Assembly (NCBI GenBank): GCA_028819845.1
Contig: JAPPKS010000027.1
Coordinates: 310,001-374,000 of the forward strand
Source of the DNA: Candidatus Poribacteria bacterium
GTDB lineage: Bacteria; Poribacteria; WGA-4E; PCPOR2b
Direction: 5' to 3'
Length of the DNA: 64,000 bases
This document shows, piece after piece, positions 31,381 through 62,273 of this stretch. Position numbers and translations under genes: made by a program. Below the pieces are notes generated by a model. The model was not told where the DNA came from. It worked only from the letters and a program-made list of their open reading frames with translations, and searched no databases. Each line of letters begins with the position of its first letter. Position 1 is the stretch's first letter.

Positions 31381-31971
31381 TCACTGGTCAGATGTTTCGG
31401 GAACAACTGGTTCTTCCGGCGGCAGCGCATAATAGACTTCAATCTCTTGAATTTTTCGATTTCGTACAACCGGTGCGCCGCCATCCGTTACCGTTCTTCG
31501 TTTCTCACCCCCCACCCGGCGAGAATCCCATCTACGAGGAACTTTGAGGCGGACTTTGCGAGTCGTCATTGGTTCCTTACCGGTGTATTTGTATTCCGGT
31601 CTCAAATGATCCCTGACACTTCTGACAGTCTTCCATTTCCCGTTCTCATCTTCGTACTGGATTTCGAAAAACTCCAGTTGTCCTTCCTTGGCTATTACAA
31701 TAATCCGCTGGACTTGTTGCGGTCTGCCCCATTGAATCACAGCTTGGCTGTATTCATCAGCTTCTTTGTATGAGTCCGGGTTGTTCGGATCATCCCTTAT
31801 TGGGCTAGTTTCACCAACTGAATAGAGATTACCGTCGTTTAGCCTCGGATCGTCCGCTGTTCCGGACATAGCAATGTTCTCACTCCATCTGATTGATGAG
31901 GTGGACGAGGTCAAACAACCGAGGCATGAAACCATTGCCAGAATTATCAGTGTATACGCGGCGTATCGCAT
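31381..31971 (-). CDS. Lipoprotein with discoidin-like (F5/8 C) domain pattern, paralogue 1
   Basis: The 196-residue protein begins with a lipoprotein signal (LIILAMVSCLGC) and contains one beta-sandwich-like domain: LNDGNLYSVGETSP, AVIQWGRPQQVQRIIVIA, LEFFEIQYEDENGKWKTV, and a closing IQEIEVYYA. The order 'DGN, hydrophobic strand with R-I-V-I, D-x-x-G-x-W, final E-I-E-x-Y' is that of F5/8-type C (discoidin) domains, which bind glycans or lipids. The next gene upstream (32083-32703) encodes a protein of the same layout. The fold is inferred from pattern only. Confidence 0.7.
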   Translation of the reverse strand: MRYAAYTLIILAMVSCLGCLTSSTSSIRWSENIAMSGTADDPRLNDGNLYSVGETSPIRDDPNNPDSYKEADEYSQAVIQWGRPQQVQRIIVIAKEGQLEFFEIQYEDENGKWKTVRSVRDHLRPEYKYTGKEPMTTRKVRLKVPRRWDSRRVGGEKRRTVTDGGAPVVRNRKIQEIEVYYALPPEEPVVPETSDQ

Positions 31972-32082: not shown

Positions 32083-32703
32083 TTACTTTAATTCTAAGAG
32101 GTCATCCAATTCCTGTTCCCGCTTTTCTACTTCCTGTTTTATTTCGGCATCCTCTGATGATCTGTAACCGTAGAGTTCAATCTCATAAAACTTACCCGGT
32201 GCACGGCTGTATCCGAAACCCACGGCCTGAAAACCGCCGCGTGCTCGTTCTCTCCGCCGCAACTCGGCATCATCGGTTGTTCCTAACACACGGATTCGGA
32301 TTCTGTCAGTCGGGAAATGCGCCCGAAGTCCGGAAAGTACGATGGGATTGGATTTGGCGCTCCTGACTTCCTTTAACACCACCCAATCGCTGTTTCCTTT
32401 ATCCGCCCACACGTCAAACTCTTTTAAGTTTTTTGAATGGATTACAATTCGGCTGATCACCTTTTTTTCAGGTAATGTTACAATGGCTTCGGTTGTAGGA
32501 GACATTCCGAATGCTCCTTCGGCGCCTTCAGGCAATGAAGCTTCGCCGACTGTCCTCAAGTTGCCATCAATCATTTCAGGGGTTGTTGCCCTTACGCCTT
32601 CCATTAGAGCATAGTTTTCGCTGAGCTCCTGCTTAGACACCAGCTTGCTAACAATATTACATCCAGTTAGACAAACCAACAATAAGGGTACAAAGCGGTA
32701 CAT
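32083..32703 (-). CDS. Lipoprotein with discoidin-like domain pattern, paralogue 2
   Basis: The 206-residue protein has a short lipoprotein signal (LLLVCLTGC). MIDGNLRTVGEASL, VISRIVIHSKNLKEFDVWAD, DWVVLKEVR and YEIELYG align in order with the neighbouring lipoprotein at 31381. It ends in a charged coiled segment (EQELDDLLELK) that the paralogue lacks. An insert rich in Arg (ELRRRERARGG) precedes the last strand. The pair probably arose by duplication and is likely anchored in the outer membrane. The ligand is unknown. Confidence 0.7.
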   Translation of the reverse strand: MYRFVPLLLVCLTGCNIVSKLVSKQELSENYALMEGVRATTPEMIDGNLRTVGEASLPEGAEGAFGMSPTTEAIVTLPEKKVISRIVIHSKNLKEFDVWADKGNSDWVVLKEVRSAKSNPIVLSGLRAHFPTDRIRIRVLGTTDDAELRRRERARGGFQAVGFGYSRAPGKFYEIELYGYRSSEDAEIKQEVEKREQELDDLLELK

Positions 32704-36486: not shown

Positions 36487-37851
36487 TTATAGTAACTCAC
36501 TGAGTGCGCCATGAAGATCCTTCACGCCAACTAAGTCAATATCTTGCTTTAAATCCAGGTTATTGCGATTGTATTCGGGGAATACCGCCCGATCGAAGCC
36601 CAACTTTGCTGCTTCGCCCAACCGCTTATCAATATGATTAACAGGCCGAACTTCTCCCCCCAAACCGACCTCACCGATGACAACAGTGCGCGGGTCGACG
36701 GCAGTATCTCGGTGGTTTGATGTAATGGCGATGGCCGTGCCGAGATCAATCCCCGGTTCGTCCAATCGCATACCTCCGGTAATATTGACAAAGACATCTG
36801 ATCCGCCAATGTCAATTCCGGCACGTTTCTGAAGTACAGCGAGTAGCAGCGCAATGCGATGCCGATCCACGCCTGCCGCGGTATTGCGCGGAATTCCGGA
36901 GCTAGCCGGTGAAACCAAAGCCTGAAGTTCCAAGAGTAGGGGGCGCGTACCCTCAATGGTCGATACGACCACCGATCCAGTGATATGCCTTTGCCGTTCA
37001 CCGATGAACATAGCTGACGGATTTTTAACTTCAACAATACCGGTGCTCAACATTTCAAAAATCCCGATTTCGTTGGTAGAACCAAATCGGTTTTTGACGG
37101 CGCGCAACACACGGTAAATGAGACGGCTCTCGCCTTCAAAAGATAGAACCGTGTCGACCATGTGCTCCAAAACGCGAGGTCCCGCTAAAGCCCCATCTTT
37201 TGTCACATGTCCAACGAGCACGATTGGGATATTTTTGTTCTTAGCGGAAATCAGCAATTGGACCGCGCTCTCACGAACCTGAGTAATACTACCGGGCGCT
37301 GCTTGTATTTCCGGAACGTAAACGGATTGGATAGAATCAATAATGACAATATCAGGTTGAAGCGACGCAACATGCGCTTCAATTTGTTCAAGATTATTTT
37401 CACAAATAACGTACAGCGAATCAGAATCAATGCCTAGGCGATTTGCCCTCAATTTTATCTGCGTCACCGACTCCTCGCCCGAGACATAGAGCACACTCCC
37501 ATAGATTCGGCTGAGGGCGTTACTTGCTTGCAACAGAAGCGTGGATTTTCCGATACCCGGATCTCCGCCGAGGAGGACGACGGAACCTGGCACAAACCCT
37601 CCGCCAAGTACCCGATCGAATTCCGCGATACCAGTTTGGAGGCGATCGGCGTCGCTAGCAGCGATTTGCGTAATCGGTTCCGGAAGACTGGCAGGCTGAC
37701 CTAAATGCCGGCGTGATGTCTTTTGCGGTGAGATGTTCTGAACTTCATCGGTCAAGGTGTTCCACTGTTCACACGCCGGACAGCGCCCGAGCCATTTTGC
37801 TGAACTGTAGCCACACTCGCCACAAACGAACTGGCGACGTTCTTTTGACAT
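36487..37851 (-). CDS. radA: DNA repair protein RadA
   Basis: RadA/Sms is a RecA-like, hexameric branch-migration helicase. The 454-residue protein has an N-terminal C4 zinc finger (CGECGYSSAKWLGRCPAC), Walker A GGDPGIGKSTLLLQ, the RadA-specific KNRFGSTNEIGIFEM motif, and a C-terminal Lon-protease-like domain (ADVFVNITGG-like region, VIGEVGLGGEVRPV). All are intact. It is 32 bp upstream of the PIN/TRAM gene on the same strand. Confidence 0.96.
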   Translation of the reverse strand: MSKERRQFVCGECGYSSAKWLGRCPACEQWNTLTDEVQNISPQKTSRRHLGQPASLPEPITQIAASDADRLQTGIAEFDRVLGGGFVPGSVVLLGGDPGIGKSTLLLQASNALSRIYGSVLYVSGEESVTQIKLRANRLGIDSDSLYVICENNLEQIEAHVASLQPDIVIIDSIQSVYVPEIQAAPGSITQVRESAVQLLISAKNKNIPIVLVGHVTKDGALAGPRVLEHMVDTVLSFEGESRLIYRVLRAVKNRFGSTNEIGIFEMLSTGIVEVKNPSAMFIGERQRHITGSVVVSTIEGTRPLLLELQALVSPASSGIPRNTAAGVDRHRIALLLAVLQKRAGIDIGGSDVFVNITGGMRLDEPGIDLGTAIAITSNHRDTAVDPRTVVIGEVGLGGEVRPVNHIDKRLGEAAKLGFDRAVFPEYNRNNLDLKQDIDLVGVKDLHGALSELL

Positions 37852-37916: not shown

Positions 37917-39512
37917 TTACCAATTTTTTGAAGCCAGCCGAAATCCGGCTGTGTATCGGATATCATTGATTAGGTTTTCTGCGCCGAAAATCACATGTCC
38001 ATGAGGAAAAACCCTCCACGACAGTTCCGTTTCCAGTTCGGGCCGACCGCTCGTCAAACGAGCCGCTTCTATTGTGACACCGAGTTTCTTCGAAAGCAGC
38101 CATAAATCGAATCCCAATCCGGGCGTTGAACGCATGAACCCCAAACGACCGCGTAAATGGTTGTTGAAATCATAACCAAATTGAAGTTCAACCTTCAATT
38201 CTTCTTCGCGGATGCCAAAGCCGAATCGGTACCGGTGATTATGTGCGGGCAATAGCAAAACCGCCAACTCGTTATGGAGGCGTTCCTCAAGGTTTAGATA
38301 TCGGAGTTCGTAATCCCAAGCGACGTCCGGGAATTTAAAACTCTCTGATTTTTCATTAAAGGTTTGGAATAGTTCTCTAACCTCACCGATTGTTTCGTCC
38401 GCCGATTGCAGCACATCTTGTGCCTTATCGTGTGTATCGGGCGTGTTAATTAAGGCCGCAACACTGCCCTCCCCAGTTTGCACCTTATCCAGCAATTGGG
38501 CGAAGTTTTCGCGCAATCCGTCCAAATCCTCGGAAACGGCAGTAAGGTTTTTTAGCAGCCGGTCAATTTTAGGTGCTTCGGCGTCAATAACTTCCTCACT
38601 CTTTAGAATAAGATTCGACATCTCGGATTTTAAGGCGGCGAGATCCGTGTGCAGCGTTTGGGACGTTTCTCGAAAATTTGAAGCACTTACGTGTAAATCA
38701 CGAACAATCTCATCAACCGTCTGCGAGTTTCGGTCAATTAAACCAATTACGGACTGTGTAATCGCTCCCGCATCGCTGCTGAGCGCTGAAGCATCGCTTT
38801 CCAACTTTTCAAACGAACGGTTTATTTGATTAAAAACCTGTTGCAAACGCGCGTCGTTGTCGGACGCAAACCGATTTAGGGTTTCGATAGACTTTTCGGT
38901 GTTTCTGACGACCGACTCTAAAGCCGCGCCGGTTTGCACGACCAACTCGCGGACTTCTCTAATTCCCTCACCGACGCCGATGCGGTTCGACTCAATTAGT
39001 GTATTTGCGGACTGGGCAACCTGTGCCGCTTGAGTGACAGCTTGCTCGGCAATATCAAGGAGGTCTACGATGCTCTTTGGGTCTTCGCCGACTAAAGGGA
39101 GGTCCTCCGGTTGTAGAGGCGGATTCCCCACAGGACCGTTTCTAATATCAATGTAAGTTTCACCTACAAATCCGATTGTGCCAATCCTGACTCTACACCC
39201 CTGGCGTAACCGCTGAAATCCTTCCTTGACTCGAAATTGAACGTCAATTAAATTTTTGTCGGCTTTGAGTTCTATCCCCGTGACTTTTCCGACCTTCACG
39301 CCTGACAATTGAACTCCAGCGCCGAGGTGCAGGTCGTTTACAGCGCCAAATTGAACCTGCAAAACGTCACCACTTACACTCCACGGCCAATTCGATGCAT
39401 TGAACAACAGAACGACAAGTAAAGCTAAGCCGATGACCGCCGCGAGCCCAACTTTAACTTGCTCATTCCACTTTGCCACCAATGCCCCCTTTTGACTAAC
39501 GGCCGCCGTCAC
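37917..39512 (-). CDS. MCE/MlaD-family lipid-transport protein with barrel-like C-terminus
   Basis: The start is GTG 39512, overlapping the ATPase stop by 4 bp. Residues 20-42 form a membrane anchor, followed by an MCE domain (about 45-125; VQFGAVNDLHLGAGVQLSGVKVG, FVGETYIDI). A long coiled coil (about 140-370) comes next, with repeated heptads. The last ~150 residues are unlike MlaD. Alternating aromatic/charged strands (YELRYLNLEERL, HRYRFGFGIREEELKVELQFGYDF, ETELSWRVFPHG, YTAGFRLASKNW) resemble outer-membrane strands. The protein could span from the inner membrane toward the outer membrane. It belongs to the mlaE-mlaF operon and probably moves phospholipids. Confidence 0.88.
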   Translation of the reverse strand: MTAAVSQKGALVAKWNEQVKVGLAAVIGLALLVVLLFNASNWPWSVSGDVLQVQFGAVNDLHLGAGVQLSGVKVGKVTGIELKADKNLIDVQFRVKEGFQRLRQGCRVRIGTIGFVGETYIDIRNGPVGNPPLQPEDLPLVGEDPKSIVDLLDIAEQAVTQAAQVAQSANTLIESNRIGVGEGIREVRELVVQTGAALESVVRNTEKSIETLNRFASDNDARLQQVFNQINRSFEKLESDASALSSDAGAITQSVIGLIDRNSQTVDEIVRDLHVSASNFRETSQTLHTDLAALKSEMSNLILKSEEVIDAEAPKIDRLLKNLTAVSEDLDGLRENFAQLLDKVQTGEGSVAALINTPDTHDKAQDVLQSADETIGEVRELFQTFNEKSESFKFPDVAWDYELRYLNLEERLHNELAVLLLPAHNHRYRFGFGIREEELKVELQFGYDFNNHLRGRLGFMRSTPGLGFDLWLLSKKLGVTIEAARLTSGRPELETELSWRVFPHGHVIFGAENLINDIRYTAGFRLASKNW

Positions 39513-40222
39513 TCAGAAATAAACTGTTGGAGAATCGCATTATCAATCATCCGGATTTCATCAAGAGAACCGGATGCAATAACTTGTCCCGCGTGTATCA
39601 TCGCCATCCTAGTCCCAACTGAGAAGGCGCTATCCATGTCGTGTGTTACAACAACCGACGTGACCTTTAGTTTCGCGTGGAGATTGCGAATTAACCGATT
39701 GATTTCGGACCCCGTTATAGGGTCTAAACCGGTCGTCGGCTCATCATATAGAATCACCTCCGGATTGAACGCGATAGCTCGTGCAAGCCCGACGCGTTTT
39801 CGCATGCCCCCACTCAGTTCTGCAGGTCTGAGTTTCTGAACGCCGTCAAGATCGACCAAATGGAGCTTTTCCGCGACAATTCCTTCAATTTCGCGTTTGC
39901 TGAGATTTGTATGTTGCGACAACATGAAGCCAACATTTTCCTCAACCGTCATCGAATCAAACAACGCTGCCGATTGGAAAAGCATGCCAATTTTTCGGCG
40001 AATCCGATTTAAATCTTTGACGTTGGAGATTGGCTCCCCATCAATCCGGATTTCTCCACCATCAGGCTGCATCAGCCCAGTAACTAGCTTGAGCAAAACG
40101 CTTTTCCCACATCCGCTTCTTCCAATTACGATTGACGTTTCGCCGCGAGGGATGTGAAGGTTCAAACCCTTGAGGACTGCTTTGTCTCCAAAGCGTTTCC
40201 ACAAATTTTCCACGTGAATCAT
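39509..40222 (-). CDS. mlaF: Mla-type lipid ABC transporter ATPase
   Basis: The 237-residue ATPase of the MCE transporter has Walker A GRSGCGKSVLLKLVTGL (Ser-Val-Leu-Leu after the P-loop is typical of MlaF), Q-loop MLFQSAALFDSMTVEENV, signature ELSGGMRKRVGLARA and Walker B VILYDEPTTGLDP. It energises lipid transport through the MlaE permease. Its start lies 72 bp after the mlaE stop, and its stop overlaps the MCE gene start. The assignment rests on motifs and gene order. Confidence 0.94.
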   Translation of the reverse strand: MIHVENLWKRFGDKAVLKGLNLHIPRGETSIVIGRSGCGKSVLLKLVTGLMQPDGGEIRIDGEPISNVKDLNRIRRKIGMLFQSAALFDSMTVEENVGFMLSQHTNLSKREIEGIVAEKLHLVDLDGVQKLRPAELSGGMRKRVGLARAIAFNPEVILYDEPTTGLDPITGSEINRLIRNLHAKLKVTSVVVTHDMDSAFSVGTRMAMIHAGQVIASGSLDEIRMIDNAILQQFISE

Positions 40223-40294: not shown

Positions 40295-41215
40295 TCACCA
40301 GATTGTATAGAGCACATGATTCAGAACAAAGTCCAAGATTAAAATGGCGATCAGGGAAGTAACTGCTGAGCCTGTTGTGGCTTTGCCGACGCCCTCTGCA
40401 CCCCCTGCAGAAGAGATTGTGAATCCCTTATAACACCCTACGGACGCGATTGCCATTCCGAAGGTTGACGATTTGATGAGGCTTACAACGACACTGCTTA
40501 TGAAAATGTAAGTGCGAGCCTGCTCCAAAAAAAAGCGCCCGTTCATCTTGAAGGGCAAGATGTAAACGGATGTGAAATAGCCTCCTGCAATCCCGAAGAC
40601 TATCGAAAACGTCGTCAGGAGTGGAAGCATAATTGCGCAAGCGACGAACCGAGGTACAACGAGGTATTTTATCGGGCTAGTCGCCATTACCTCCAACGCG
40701 TCAATCTGTTCGGTCACCTTCATCGTGCCAAGTTCTGCCGTGATTGAGGCGCCGATGCGGCCTGCCAAGATAAAGGCCGTGACCATGGGGCCTAGCTCTT
40801 TTACTACCGAAACGCTGACAAATCTTCCGACAGAGCCTTCGGCTGAAAGGTCCTTCAGTTGGTGATATCCCTGCGTTGCCAATACCATTCCCGTGAAGAT
40901 TCCAGAGACCAACACGACCGGCAGTGAGTTAACGCCAACCAACAGTAACTGTCGAACAAGCAGATTGAATTGAAACGGGCGTCTGAAAATTAGAGAAAGG
41001 ATTGAATAGACAAATGTAACCGCGCTTCCAATTCCATGTAACTTCTTGAATATCCAACCACCCACAAAACCTACAACACGGACTGAAACCGAGCGGCGAT
41101 GTGGTTGGGTTGAGAGTGATTGTTCCTCGTCATTGCCCATCGAAATCATAAAGTTTGAAATGTACAACCTTAAATTTTCAACAATATTGGATTGAGGAAC
41201 ATTGTGCTTCCCCAC
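40295..41215 (-). CDS. mlaE: Mla-type lipid ABC transporter permease
   Basis: The MlaE family permease has about six hydrophobic segments, the motif VKELGPMVTAFILAGRIGASITAELGTM (given here only as a landmark near residues 140-170), the EQIDALEVMATSPIKYLVVPR coupling segment, and a C-terminal GCYKGFTISSAGGAEGVGKATT region. The start is uncertain: GTG 41215 gives an unusual 40-residue polar extension with no ribosome site, and an internal ATG at 41149 is a reasonable alternative. With MlaF and the MCE protein it forms an inner-membrane lipid transporter. Confidence 0.93.
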   Translation of the reverse strand: MGKHNVPQSNIVENLRLYISNFMISMGNDEEQSLSTQPHRRSVSVRVVGFVGGWIFKKLHGIGSAVTFVYSILSLIFRRPFQFNLLVRQLLLVGVNSLPVVLVSGIFTGMVLATQGYHQLKDLSAEGSVGRFVSVSVVKELGPMVTAFILAGRIGASITAELGTMKVTEQIDALEVMATSPIKYLVVPRFVACAIMLPLLTTFSIVFGIAGGYFTSVYILPFKMNGRFFLEQARTYIFISSVVVSLIKSSTFGMAIASVGCYKGFTISSAGGAEGVGKATTGSAVTSLIAILILDFVLNHVLYTIW

Positions 41216-41245: not shown

Positions 41246-42577
41246 TTACGCAGGAATATCGGAGAATCGCATCAGTCTCTTATGGAATTCCAGTTGAATG
41301 GTACCGGTTGGTCCATTTCGCTGCTTTTTAATTATCAAATCTGCGAGCCCTTGGTCTTCTTCGGTCTGGTCATCATAATAATCTTCCCTGTACAAGAAGG
41401 CGACCACGTCGGCATCTTGCTCAATAGCGCCGGATTCTCTTAAATCGGAGAGTTGTGGCCGTTTATCCGGCCGCCTTTCGACTTCGCGGCTAAGTTGGGA
41501 ACAAGCAACAATCGGAACGTTTAACTCCCACGCGAGGGTTTTGAGGGAGCGTGAAATATCAGAAATTTCTTCGACTCGCCCGTAGTATTTGCTAGTGCCA
41601 CTGAGCAACTGCAAGTAGTCTACGATTATAACGGCGAGATCGTCGCGTTCGCCTTTTAACCTTCTCCCTTCGGCGCGCAATTCATGTACAGATAAACCTC
41701 GCGCATCGTTAATGAAAATCGGAACGGAGATTAAGCTGCTTGTTCCCTGCGTCAAGGATTCCCAGTGTTCATCAGTGAGTTTACCGGTACGGATGCGGCC
41801 AAAATCAATTCCTGTTTCTGCAGCGAGCATTCGCATCACCACATGCCTAGCGGGCATTTCAAGGCTAAAGATTAAGACCGGCAAATTATTTCTGGCAATG
41901 TTTTGAGCAATGTTCAGCACGAGAGTTGACTTGCCCATACTGGGACGCGCGGCGATAATACTCAAATCACCGGGCTGCAACCCTGATGTCATTACGTCAA
42001 GATTGAAGAAGCCTGTGGACACGCCGAGAATCTGTTCTTCTTTATGATATAGGCTTTCGATCTCCTTCAGGGTCTGCTTAACAAGCGGTGCAATCAACAT
42101 CGAGCCGCGTCTGGCATCGGCGTGACTGAGACGAAACACTTCCTCTTGCGCTTGGCTTAAAACATCGTTGAGTTCCCGTTCTTGATCGTTAGCAAGTGTG
42201 CCGATTTGCTGCCCAGCGCGAACCAACTGGCGCCGCATCCACTTTTCTTTTACAATCTGCGCATACAGCTCAGTGCTTTCAGTTTCGACGATCTGCGCCT
42301 GCAGGTCGTACAAGTAAACCGCACCGCCAGCCCGATTCAGTTGATCTATTTTTTCAAGTTCGTTTGCGACGAGGAGTGGATCGACCTGATTATGACGCTC
42401 GTAGCTCGAATGAATCGCCGCGTAGATGAGCTGATGATCTGTTGTGAAAAAGGGTTCAGCCGTGTGGCCGAGCGCTGAAACTACACGAGGTATAACTGCT
42501 CGGTCGGTCATCATTGCCCCGAGAACAGCTTGTTCAGCTGCTTTATCATGAAGTGTGTCTCTGGGTTCAGATTGCAC
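41246..42577 (-). CDS. dnaB: Replicative DNA helicase
   Basis: DnaB unwinds DNA at the replication fork. The 443-residue protein has an N-terminal helical domain (DKAAEQAVLGAMM) and a RecA-like motor: Walker A AARPSMGKSTL, LSIIAARPS, FSLEMPARHVVMRM, Walker B-type VIIVDYLQLL, and the C-terminal LSDLRESGAIEQDADVV plus KQRNGPTGT. No intein interrupts it. It follows rplI in the ribosomal cluster rpsF-ssb-rpsR-rplI-dnaB, an order shared by many bacteria. Confidence 0.97.
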   Translation of the reverse strand: MQSEPRDTLHDKAAEQAVLGAMMTDRAVIPRVVSALGHTAEPFFTTDHQLIYAAIHSSYERHNQVDPLLVANELEKIDQLNRAGGAVYLYDLQAQIVETESTELYAQIVKEKWMRRQLVRAGQQIGTLANDQERELNDVLSQAQEEVFRLSHADARRGSMLIAPLVKQTLKEIESLYHKEEQILGVSTGFFNLDVMTSGLQPGDLSIIAARPSMGKSTLVLNIAQNIARNNLPVLIFSLEMPARHVVMRMLAAETGIDFGRIRTGKLTDEHWESLTQGTSSLISVPIFINDARGLSVHELRAEGRRLKGERDDLAVIIVDYLQLLSGTSKYYGRVEEISDISRSLKTLAWELNVPIVACSQLSREVERRPDKRPQLSDLRESGAIEQDADVVAFLYREDYYDDQTEEDQGLADLIIKKQRNGPTGTIQLEFHKRLMRFSDIPA

Positions 42578-59351: not shown

Positions 59352-62273
59352 TCAAAAGGCTTGGCTTAGTCCAAAGTGGAACATTGTGTCCGGATTAATC
59401 TCGGCGAGGTCGGTTCGACGCGCAACATCGAAATCGAGAGAGAAGAACCCAAGCTGTAATCGGAGTCCAATGCCAACAGAACCTTTGACATCATCGAGGC
59501 GATAGCGGTTATTCTCCTTATGAAAGACGTGATATGGATTGTCGCGGTGGAGCGCCTCCGACCAAACGGTGCCAAAATCAGAGAAAGCAATACCACGAAT
59601 CCCGCTGATTGCCCACGGGAAGGGCCAACCAAACCTAAGCTCGTCAATGAATGGGATTCGAATCTCAAAATTCATTAGTCCCATACGCGTACCGATTAGG
59701 TCCTGGTAACGATATCCCCTGAGGGTATCGATTCCGCCGAGATAAAAGAGGGATTTATCTGAGCCAAAGCTGCCGCCTAGCAGCAAACGGGTTGCAAATG
59801 TTGAACGCCTGCCAAGTTTAAAATAGCGTCGATAGTCGAAGACGACATTCGTCAGTTCTAGTTCGCTGCCTAAAGCCCGAAACGACTTCTCGAATGTAAG
59901 TTTGTAGCGTGTGCCAGTATGGGGCCCAAACACTTTCCACATCGTGGTATCACCCACGAGAGAGAGTGTTCCGAGAAAGAGGATTGCACGGTTGTCGCCG
60001 AAATTACGCGCCGGATTAGGTTCAAAGTTGAAGGAAAACGGGGTAGAGTACATTAAGAGGTTGAAATCTAACCGACGATAGCGATTGAATGGATGACTCA
60101 TGAATCCGAGAAAGCCGGTGGTACGCTGCAAATATCCGCGGCGATCGCGAGTTGTGCCCAAGAGGTAATATTGGTGGTAGTTAAAAAGGGCGGCGCCAAG
60201 ATCGCTGCGGCGCGCGAGAAATCCGTATCGTAGTATGAAATCCGGTGCCAGGAAGCCTGATTGATTTATCAAACTTGCGCCCAACCGATGATTGCCCATC
60301 ATATCGCTTCCGATGAACTCCGTTGTGTTACGCAGAAGACCGTCAGCGCCCAAGTTAAAGTTGGTGAAAATTGCGTCCAGGGCAATGTTGGTATCGTATT
60401 TCCGGCGGCCAATGCGGCGCGGCGGCGGTGTCGAAGCGTCTGCAATTATCGGCTGCACCTCCAAAGGCGGCATGTCAATCTTGTCATTCATTGCCTTTGC
60501 CGCGTCCATGAGATAGATGTCCTGTCTTCCATTTTGATACGCAGTAAAGACAATATTTTTCTGATGGGGGTCAAGGCTAGGGTTGAAGCACCCCGTGATG
60601 ATACTTGTCAATCGCGTAAAATCCGATCCATCCGGTTTAATCGTGTGCAAATCGTAGACACCGTGCAGGTCCGAGCAGAAAATTATTTTTTCCCCATCGG
60701 GCGACCATTTTGGACTCACGGCGTTGTGTTCGCCGTATGTCAACTGCCGTTGTGTGCGGTCAATTAGATTAAAGATGACTAGTTTGTTCTTGCTCTCGCG
60801 CTCTGAGGAATAGATGATTTCTTCTGTTGTTGGGTGCCATGACGGGTGGTTATCATTGAAGGGGTCGTTTGTCAACCGAGTGATCTCTCCGGTTAAAAGT
60901 TCGATGACATATAAATCGGATTGTCCTTTGTCTAATGCAGCAAAAACGATGCGGTCGCCGTTTCCATCATAGCTCGGTGAATATGCTGCATCGAAGTCGA
61001 GTTTTAAGCGGCGCTTTAGTTTTTTGGTTATGATATCAATCTCCAATAGATAATCCGTTCCGTGATGCTTGGCAATACATGCAATACAATCACCATCAGG
61101 CGACCAAGCAATTCCGCTGCCGTCCATGCGGAGGTCTTCATATTTGCTCCCAAAGAAACGTTTACTAATTCGGGCAAGTCTTTTCCCGCTCTTTGCGGAC
61201 ACGAGGACGATTTCGCCAAATCCGTCGCTGCCGGTAATGTAAGCGATGATGTCGCCGCTTGGCGACCAAGCTGGCTTTACGTTGCTGGAAAATCGGGATT
61301 TTTCAGTCAGGCTTTTGGCAATCGTATCTGGCGTATCCTTGTGCTCAACCAGGGGCCAATATTTTTTCTGAACGACGCGGCGCCAACTTTTATCGAACTC
61401 TTCTAGACCAATGCCGAGCACATTTTTGAAGGCAATGTCGATATCTTTTGTTCGGATGTGCCTTAATTCATGCATGATCTGCCCCACTTTGTCTCGGCCG
61501 TAAGTTTCCACCAAGTACCCAACTGCAGATTGCCCCATCTTATACCCGAGAAAGACATGCGGGCCGAGAACGCGGAAATCTTGAAGGCGGGTCAACGGAA
61601 CAATGTAGTTGGCGAGGCTTGCATCCCGTAAAACCATCTCTCCGATCGTGTCATTGTCTTCGCCAAAGTAGTCTGCTGATCCTTCAATGAACCAAATTGG
61701 AGGTGAATAGAGAAATTCGCCGCTATAGATATGAGCCGCAGGTTTCTGATAGATAATATCGTATTGAAAGATATGTACCAATTCGTGAAATATGACCTCT
61801 CGAAACGCTTCCATTGAACCCGTGAAGGGAATCACCATACGCCGCTTAAATATTTCAGCGAAACCGCCTATGCCTTCGTGAATCTCCTGCAGTATAATAT
61901 TGGTCTCCTGAAAATCTTTGTGGGATTGATATAGAATTAGCGGTGTGCGATCTTTGATTTCGTGGTCAAAATCTTCGCTGTGCTTTTCATACGCTTCTTC
62001 CGCAATGTCTGCCATAATCGGAACAAGCCGCTCTTCGCTAGGGTAGTAATGAATATCAAAATGTTCTGTGCGGTGAATTTTCCAGTCGAAAGGTTCATCG
62101 GTAACTTTGTTTTTGCCAAATCCCTGCGCCCAACTGGTTTGGGAGTAAAAGAGAAATGTGGACAGACACAAGAAGAACAATGAAATCGCCGGTGAAGCCG
62201 GTGTGATGCGCGAATTGCGGCGCTCGACACAAAACTTGAAGCGTGTTATGAACAATTGTATCAATGTAATCAT
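59352..62273 (-). CDS. Outer-membrane fusion: MA-type metallopeptidase, TolB-like propeller, Omp85/BamA-like barrel
   Basis: The 973-residue protein has a signal sequence (about 29-50) and a gluzincin peptidase domain with EVIFHELVHIFQYD (His163, Glu164, His167) and a downstream glutamate in IWFIEGSADYF (Glu197), as in Peptidase_MA-type families. Residues ~300-600 carry PD40/WD-like repeats (WSPSGDIIAYITG, WSPDGDCIACIAK, WSPDGEKIIFCSD), a TolB-type propeller. The last ~330 residues form a surface-antigen barrel with GGIDTLRGYRYQDL (the Omp85 loop-6 position), FEIRIPFIDELRF, and final phenylalanine in FGLSQAF. The barrel may anchor the peptidase in the outer membrane. Substrate unknown. Confidence 0.85.
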   Translation of the reverse strand: MITLIQLFITRFKFCVERRNSRITPASPAISLFFLCLSTFLFYSQTSWAQGFGKNKVTDEPFDWKIHRTEHFDIHYYPSEERLVPIMADIAEEAYEKHSEDFDHEIKDRTPLILYQSHKDFQETNIILQEIHEGIGGFAEIFKRRMVIPFTGSMEAFREVIFHELVHIFQYDIIYQKPAAHIYSGEFLYSPPIWFIEGSADYFGEDNDTIGEMVLRDASLANYIVPLTRLQDFRVLGPHVFLGYKMGQSAVGYLVETYGRDKVGQIMHELRHIRTKDIDIAFKNVLGIGLEEFDKSWRRVVQKKYWPLVEHKDTPDTIAKSLTEKSRFSSNVKPAWSPSGDIIAYITGSDGFGEIVLVSAKSGKRLARISKRFFGSKYEDLRMDGSGIAWSPDGDCIACIAKHHGTDYLLEIDIITKKLKRRLKLDFDAAYSPSYDGNGDRIVFAALDKGQSDLYVIELLTGEITRLTNDPFNDNHPSWHPTTEEIIYSSERESKNKLVIFNLIDRTQRQLTYGEHNAVSPKWSPDGEKIIFCSDLHGVYDLHTIKPDGSDFTRLTSIITGCFNPSLDPHQKNIVFTAYQNGRQDIYLMDAAKAMNDKIDMPPLEVQPIIADASTPPPRRIGRRKYDTNIALDAIFTNFNLGADGLLRNTTEFIGSDMMGNHRLGASLINQSGFLAPDFILRYGFLARRSDLGAALFNYHQYYLLGTTRDRRGYLQRTTGFLGFMSHPFNRYRRLDFNLLMYSTPFSFNFEPNPARNFGDNRAILFLGTLSLVGDTTMWKVFGPHTGTRYKLTFEKSFRALGSELELTNVVFDYRRYFKLGRRSTFATRLLLGGSFGSDKSLFYLGGIDTLRGYRYQDLIGTRMGLMNFEIRIPFIDELRFGWPFPWAISGIRGIAFSDFGTVWSEALHRDNPYHVFHKENNRYRLDDVKGSVGIGLRLQLGFFSLDFDVARRTDLAEINPDTMFHFGLSQAF

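Follow-up and report, generated by a model that had tools for sequence, protein, structure and literature searches.

We identified, in a genome of Candidatus Poribacteria, a barrel-type long MlaD encoded by the third gene of an mlaE-mlaF-mlaD operon, i.e., a component of a three-gene transenvelope lipid transporter. This assignment is well supported, and the protein is ordinary in kind, since its architecture has been known since 2023. The MlaD chain very probably spans the whole double envelope, from the inner membrane to a ten-strand barrel in the outer membrane. Such a bridge made by a single polypeptide had been proposed in an earlier reading of the same DNA (hereafter, the original prediction), and it is sustained by the predicted barrel, by fold matches to outer-membrane proteins, by a marginal asymmetry of the loops, by profile homology, and by the fact that MlaA and MlaC were not found. 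We give a probability of about 0.8 to the whole explanation, a minimal MlaEFD transenvelope transporter with an outer-membrane barrel, in which we infer the insertion, the hexamer, and the lipid transport. Here, the window means the whole stretch of 64,000 nucleotides that was analysed; the genome to which it belongs has a completeness of 96.6%.

The mlaD gene occupies positions 37917..39512 of the window on the minus strand, as does every other feature given below with window coordinates. The frame, read from GTG 39512 down to 37917, is complete with 531 codons, and the product ends in ...RLASKNW. The coordinates given in the original prediction were exact; the strand, which is minus, had been left unstated. 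GTG 39512 overlaps the stop codon of mlaF. An alternative in-frame GTG (39479), found eleven codons on, is preceded by AAGGGGG and aligns with the starts of relatives. The choice of the start codon is uncertain, and the true start is possibly GTG 39479, which would give a product of 520 aa. Upstream of mlaD are found the mlaF gene for the ABC ATPase (39509..40222), with MlaF as the best NCBIfam match (199.8 bits, under the model cut-off of 441), and the mlaE permease gene (40295..41215), matched by PF02405 (E 1.6e-72) and, above its cut-off, by TIGR00056.

This operon is embedded in a deeply conserved gene order, i.e., rplI, dnaB, mlaE, mlaF, mlaD, radA, a PIN/TRAM-type gene, and ispD, where the names other than mla were assigned from sequence and are presumed types. 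The two immediate neighbours, the dnaB-type gene upstream of mlaE (41246..42577) and the radA-type gene beside mlaD (36487..37851), are context and have no functional part in the transporter. Using tblastn on 59 poribacterial loci, we recovered RadA in 58, MlaF in 58, MlaE in 54, DnaB in 51, RplI in 49, PIN/TRAM in 46, and IspD in 45. The order holds in these loci up to the limit of each stretch, single-gene misses aside, and many of the misses correspond to short stretches or contig ends; the PIN/TRAM match is absent inside the full-length stretches of two loci (L057 and L078, tblastn). RadA also lies within the stretch at three of the 20 loci outside the phylum (L133, L140, and L148, tblastn), and its presence beside mlaD inside and outside Poribacteria hints at an old neighbourhood. 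At another locus (L096, 6143-8026, minus strand), the dnaB-type frame reaches 627 aa, against about 445 usually, an extra length that could be an insertion such as an intein.

At its N-terminus, MlaD presents a putative inner-membrane helix (39393..39503; helix 4-40 of the model), with a hydrophobic stretch conserved in relatives. It is followed by an MCE domain (39138..39365, residues 50-125) recognised by Pfam MlaD/MCE PF02470 with an E-value of 2.2e-13 and 50.7 bits, for a cut-off of 25.1. This domain was found once, while PqiB and LetB are characterised by more than one. The E. coli-type NCBIfam equivalog OM_asym_MlaD (TIGR04430) gives 60.7 bits, below its cut-off of 135. Several coiled-coil models of Pfam and NCBIfam also match along the rod; these matches were set aside as compositional.

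Residues 148-388 (about 240) are helical in the models. They comprise a long amphipathic rod helix (38475..39071, residues 148-346), a G-x-G hinge (38466..38474, residues 347-349, GEG), and a shorter helix between the hinge and the barrel (38349..38465, residues 350-388). The pLDDT of the rod model is under 50 over residues 172-393; the V. parvula rod is likewise weakly modelled (PMC10665443). The amphipathic stripe along the rod is seen in the periodicity of the sequence: over residues 148-346, hydrophobicity has a period of 3.56 residues, as expected for a single long amphipathic helix, with a power of 62.1, for a mean of 7.3 in shuffles, a power reached by none of 1000 shuffles.

The dimensions of this rod are nearly constant in the phylum. 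In the alignment of 47 poribacterial rows, the distance from the end of the MCE domain to the barrel is 249 residues in 37 rows, 250 in eight, 251 in one, and 254 in one, and the two glycines of the hinge, Gly 347 and Gly 349, are conserved at 96% and 100%, respectively. In 17 diverse poribacterial rows, this same distance is 242-252, while the 50 outside sequences span 129 to 249 (median 176), and one of them (L164) attains 249, as in most of the 47 rows. The hinge motif was found directly in 16 of the 17 diverse rows; in these, it is located exactly 200 residues after the MCE domain in 13 and 49 residues before the barrel in 12. Outside the phylum, the MCE-to-hinge distance goes from 87 to about 200 residues, and the hinge-to-barrel distance, in the 37 sequences with a motif match, is 35 in 28, 42 in seven, 44 in one, and six in one (the latter, L163, is counted here though its match is spurious). 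Thus, with hinge and barrel positions taken from a MAFFT alignment, the hinge-to-barrel distances are mostly multiples of seven (35, 42, and 49), in related sequences that are non-independent. We also considered a heptad quantisation of the longer section of the rod. It is weakly marked when each length is counted once (R at period 7 = 0.16 for 21 values), hence only the hinge-to-barrel spacing was retained.

A helix rises by 1.5 Å per residue. Two collinear helices would make a rod of about 36 nm, more than the periplasm width of 24 nm measured in V. parvula; hence, either the rod must kink or the poribacterial periplasm is wide. The portion of PMC5087111 in which a known wide poribacterial periplasm was sought gives no periplasm width. 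It is tempting, though doubtful, to see in the rod a molecular ruler of the envelope width. If true, the helix length would be set in whole heptads to the periplasm of each lineage, the distance between the two membranes could be predicted from MlaD length in diderm bacteria at large, and the periplasm of Poribacteria would be unusually wide, at roughly 35 to 40 nm. The lineage-specific rod lengths can be compared with measured periplasm widths.

The C-terminal domain (37932..38327, residues 396-527) is a predicted ten-strand beta-barrel. An AlphaFold2 model of residues 370-531, built from 48 sequences, contains one helix and ten strands, with a mean pLDDT of 87.6 and a pTM of 0.73. The full-length model gives the same ten strands again, together with helix 4-40, the MCE fold, and helices through residue 388. 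In Foldseek searches against the PDB, the best matches are mostly designed or natural transmembrane barrels; among the eight matches below 0.001, one is a soluble phycobiliprotein lyase. Using VIA-align, the top match is the omptin Pla (Z 15.0, rmsd 2.7, 132 aligned), and further matches are a Legionella porin I (Z 14.7), OpcA (Z 13.9), and the designed transmembrane barrel TMB10_163 (Z 13.6). Lower values are obtained for the soluble ten-strand barrels BFA1 (12.3), Rv2717c (12.2), and nitrobindin (11.8). In this comparison, we take omptins and OpcA to be ten-stranded, and BFA1, Rv2717c, and nitrobindin to be soluble. At the sequence level, the barrel profile retrieved no credible match among solved structures (best E 0.083), and the barrel domain alone had no match in NCBIfam at E up to 1. 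The barrel-like extension announced by the original prediction is thus confidently predicted by the models, with structural matches that are mostly outer-membrane barrels. A soluble globular C-terminus, the outcome set against that prediction, was not what the models returned, and soluble ten-strand barrels match at somewhat lower Z.

By itself, the fold match would be compatible with a soluble barrel too, and the outward face was judged indirectly, from strand alternation, conservation, and loop lengths. Alternation splits the ten strands into a hydrophobic and a polar face: the mean hydrophobic contrast is 2.37, against 0.97 (sd 0.22) in within-strand shuffles, none of 20,000 reaching the observed value. 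In 47 sequences (the window protein and 46 poribacterial relatives), the polar face is better conserved (entropy 0.89 vs 1.28, permutation p 0.007). On the contrary, in the MCE domain of the same 47 proteins, it is the hydrophobic face which is much better conserved (0.59 vs 1.80). Polar conservation in the barrel, opposite to that of the MCE domain, is the pattern expected of an inside-out barrel. The contrast is non-significant when computed in nine residue classes (p 0.12) and becomes marginal when restricted to 18 diverse sequences of the phylum (p 0.07). With the 37 joint rows or the 20 outside ones, conservation of the hydrophobic face equals or exceeds that of the polar face, by far less than in the MCE control, and this reversal in the wider joint set is clearest with nine classes. 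The connections between strands were compared in 36 sequences (L141, cut by a contig end, was excluded from this comparison only): on the side away from the rod, their lengths vary with a mean sd of 3.90, against 0.76 on the near side. Varying far loops and near-constant near loops are as in outer-membrane barrels, in an asymmetry of marginal strength (attained by 6 of 126 relabellings) which one far-side loop, the S5-S6 connection, does not follow, as it never varies in the 36 sequences.

The domain could also be a soluble periplasmic barrel of the lipocalin or nitrobindin type, which would remain outside the outer membrane and act at the distal end of the tube by binding lipid or a partner. 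Soluble folds do occur in the match list, at Z about 10 to 12, and the better conservation of the hydrophobic face in the widest joint alignment, with nine classes, goes in the same direction. We nevertheless consider such a soluble barrel improbable: the top Z values belong mainly to outer-membrane barrels, face conservation in the poribacterial barrels runs opposite to that in the soluble MCE domain, the loop variation is mostly one-sided, and the barrel of V. parvula MlaD, when isolated, localised with the outer membrane by fractionation (PMC10665443). Taken together, alternation, conservation, and loops favour a membrane barrel over a soluble one, and we consider that the barrel is probably inserted in the outer membrane.

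A search for the C-terminal domain in other proteins, suggested as a check by the original prediction, retrieved it in most of the phylum and in 50 genomes outside it. The domain alignment, scanned against named genomes, gave 48 loci, all 48 in Poribacteria. Overall, 77 of the 84 phylum genomes contain the domain; among those with good completeness and low contamination, the count is 54 of 55. With a profile built from 18 poribacterial barrels, matches were obtained in 124 of 288 genomes, 50 of them among the about 211 outside the phylum. All 50 outside open frames also carry an MCE domain. Indeed, the 20 outside proteins examined in full have an MCE-helix-barrel organisation (among them L141, cut at a contig end), and the MCE profile matches each of the other 30 frames (worst E 4.4e-13). 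By blastp, 15 of the 20 examined outside loci have MlaE- and MlaF-like genes next to the gene of the barrel protein. In plasmids, the window protein had no named barrel-type relative, and, for one outside protein, the matches among the best 15 of 122 records were confined to the MCE domain, with a query coverage of 66% at most.

Neither MlaA (PF04333) nor MlaC (PF05494) was detected in any of the 84 phylum genomes, the controls being positive in E. coli and Caulobacter. An operon with mlaE and mlaF, and mlaA and mlaC not found, correspond to what is observed in transenvelope MlaEFD systems. The genome of the window also encodes TamB (a frame of 2275 aa), LpxC (E 1.3e-85), and Omp85 and FadL-type proteins, i.e., a diderm setting; LptD was not found in this genome, by a model which also misses the Bacteroides control.

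The same genome contains a second MlaEFD-type operon on another contig (C12), whose MCE protein of 442 aa is barrel-less (L102, 4588-5916, minus strand, in its own mlaE-mlaF-type operon). This second protein harbours six GxG motifs spaced by 34, 34, 52, 34, and 68 residues, mostly 34 or twice 34. In seven of the nine genomes of the window's family (G000, G002-G005, G007, and G008), a second or sole MCE gene was identified, with a frame of 410-486 aa, and the absence of a barrel in second MCE proteins was read in the window's own genome. A gene of the same size class (444 aa) was found in G069, and a further weak MCE match, below cut-off, in G058.

From these elements, a mechanism can be proposed. 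The N-terminal helix would lie in the inner membrane and dock onto the MlaE/MlaF ABC transporter, as suggested by the operon and by homology. Six copies would assemble, like characterised MCE proteins, into an MCE ring prolonged by a tube of long amphipathic helices, hydrophobic inside. Past the GxG hinge and the shorter helix, each chain would end in its own predicted ten-strand outer-membrane barrel. ATP hydrolysis by MlaE/MlaF may then move phospholipids along the tube between the two membranes, most likely from the outer to the inner one, a direction suggested by the V. parvula and E. coli systems. With a lipid path along the tube, the MlaC shuttle and MlaA would be unneeded.

For the barrel, we favour the role of an anchor over that of a lipid channel, because it is small, with conserved charged residues on the less hydrophobic strand faces. 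Alternatively, it could be the lipid conduit, several barrels fusing or opening into one larger TolC-like pore across the outer membrane. This possibility is raised in PMC10665443, and six chains would meet at the barrel end if the protein is a hexamer. However, AlphaFold2 confidently gives each chain its own ten strands, a single barrel is judged too narrow for a phospholipid (PMC10665443), and charges are conserved on the strand faces, which makes a conduit very improbable. The anchor thus remains our preferred role, and the fixed distance between hinge and barrel gives a handle on the role of the barrel, a question found in PMC10665443.

As for the function of the operon, it could export lipids from the inner to the outer membrane, or carry another hydrophobic substrate, instead of retrieving phospholipids. 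The sequence does not tell the direction, lipids of other kinds are carried by MCE systems elsewhere (PMC10665443), and the second MCE gene of some genomes of the window's family could split the work. Against this, the mla mutants of V. parvula have the behaviour of lipid-asymmetry mutants, with suppression by mutations in tamB (PMC10665443), and both TamB and LpxC are present in the genome of the window. Hence, we regard export or another substrate as rather unlikely, and phospholipid retrieval as the preferred function.

Other features of the window are worth reporting. At 59352-62273, a protein of 973 aa combines Peptidase_MA_2, PD40 propeller repeats, and a C-terminal Omp85 barrel, and is a candidate fusion of a protease-like domain, a propeller, and an outer-membrane barrel. 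Two adjacent small proteins, encoded at 31381-31971 and 32083-32703, each start with a hydrophobic stretch ending in Cys and, judged by eye, are possibly lipoproteins; the product of 31381-31971 only is matched by F5/8 type C (discoidin) models, below cut-offs.

The closest described layout is that of V. parvula MlaD, in which a helical region of about 150 residues connects the TM helix and the MCE domain to a ten-strand barrel (Grasekamp et al. 2023, PMC10665443). In that study, the architecture is described as widespread, and the barrel was inferred in 103 sequences, is associated with the absence of MlaA and MlaC, and is stated to be absent from the PVC and FCB groups (PMC10665443). The word Poribacteria does not occur in the main text of PMC10665443. 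In the open-licence literature, we found no paper on Poribacteria with MlaD and recognised no further paper describing the barrel type. Three points were not found in print: the phylum-wide occurrence in Poribacteria; the unusually long rod of near-constant length, in which about 249 residues separate the MCE domain from the barrel (median of 176 in the 50 relatives); and the conserved GxG hinge placed 35, 42, or 49 residues before the barrel. The proposed ancestral layout, MlaEFD with a membrane-to-membrane MlaD, is thereby extended to a whole uncultivated phylum of sponge symbionts.

Likened by described layout, the window and V. parvula systems share the TM helix, the one MCE domain, the long helix, the ten-strand barrel, and mlaE and mlaF in the operon; they also share the presence of TamB and have no MlaA or MlaC. 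They differ in the length of MlaD, which is 531 aa in the window and 419 aa in V. parvula, with about 240 and about 150 helical residues, respectively. Their locations differ too, the poribacterial operon lying between dnaB- and radA-type genes and that of V. parvula beside tolC and tamB. The original prediction had contrasted the extension with the tails of MlaD and PqiB, which is right for E. coli; the extension is not novel, however, since V. parvula MlaD is built in the same way (PMC10665443).

With E. coli MlaD, the window protein shares the TM helix, the MCE domain, and the MlaE/MlaF partners. The E. coli protein, of 183 aa, has neither the long rod nor the barrel and works with MlaC and MlaA, which were not found in Poribacteria. 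PqiB and LetB (YebT) of E. coli are also MCE proteins, and the helical tube of PqiB reaches towards the outer membrane, but they carry several MCE domains per chain and are not known to have an ABC partner, whereas the window MlaD has one MCE domain and a barrel. PqiA is described as devoid of an ATPase (PMC12436622). Finally, the mycobacterial Mce1A-1F proteins share with the window MlaD a single MCE domain and a long helical needle. In the Mce1A-1F heterohexamer, a six-strand barrel is built with one strand from each chain (PMC10665443), whereas each chain of the window MlaD is predicted to form its own ten-strand barrel.
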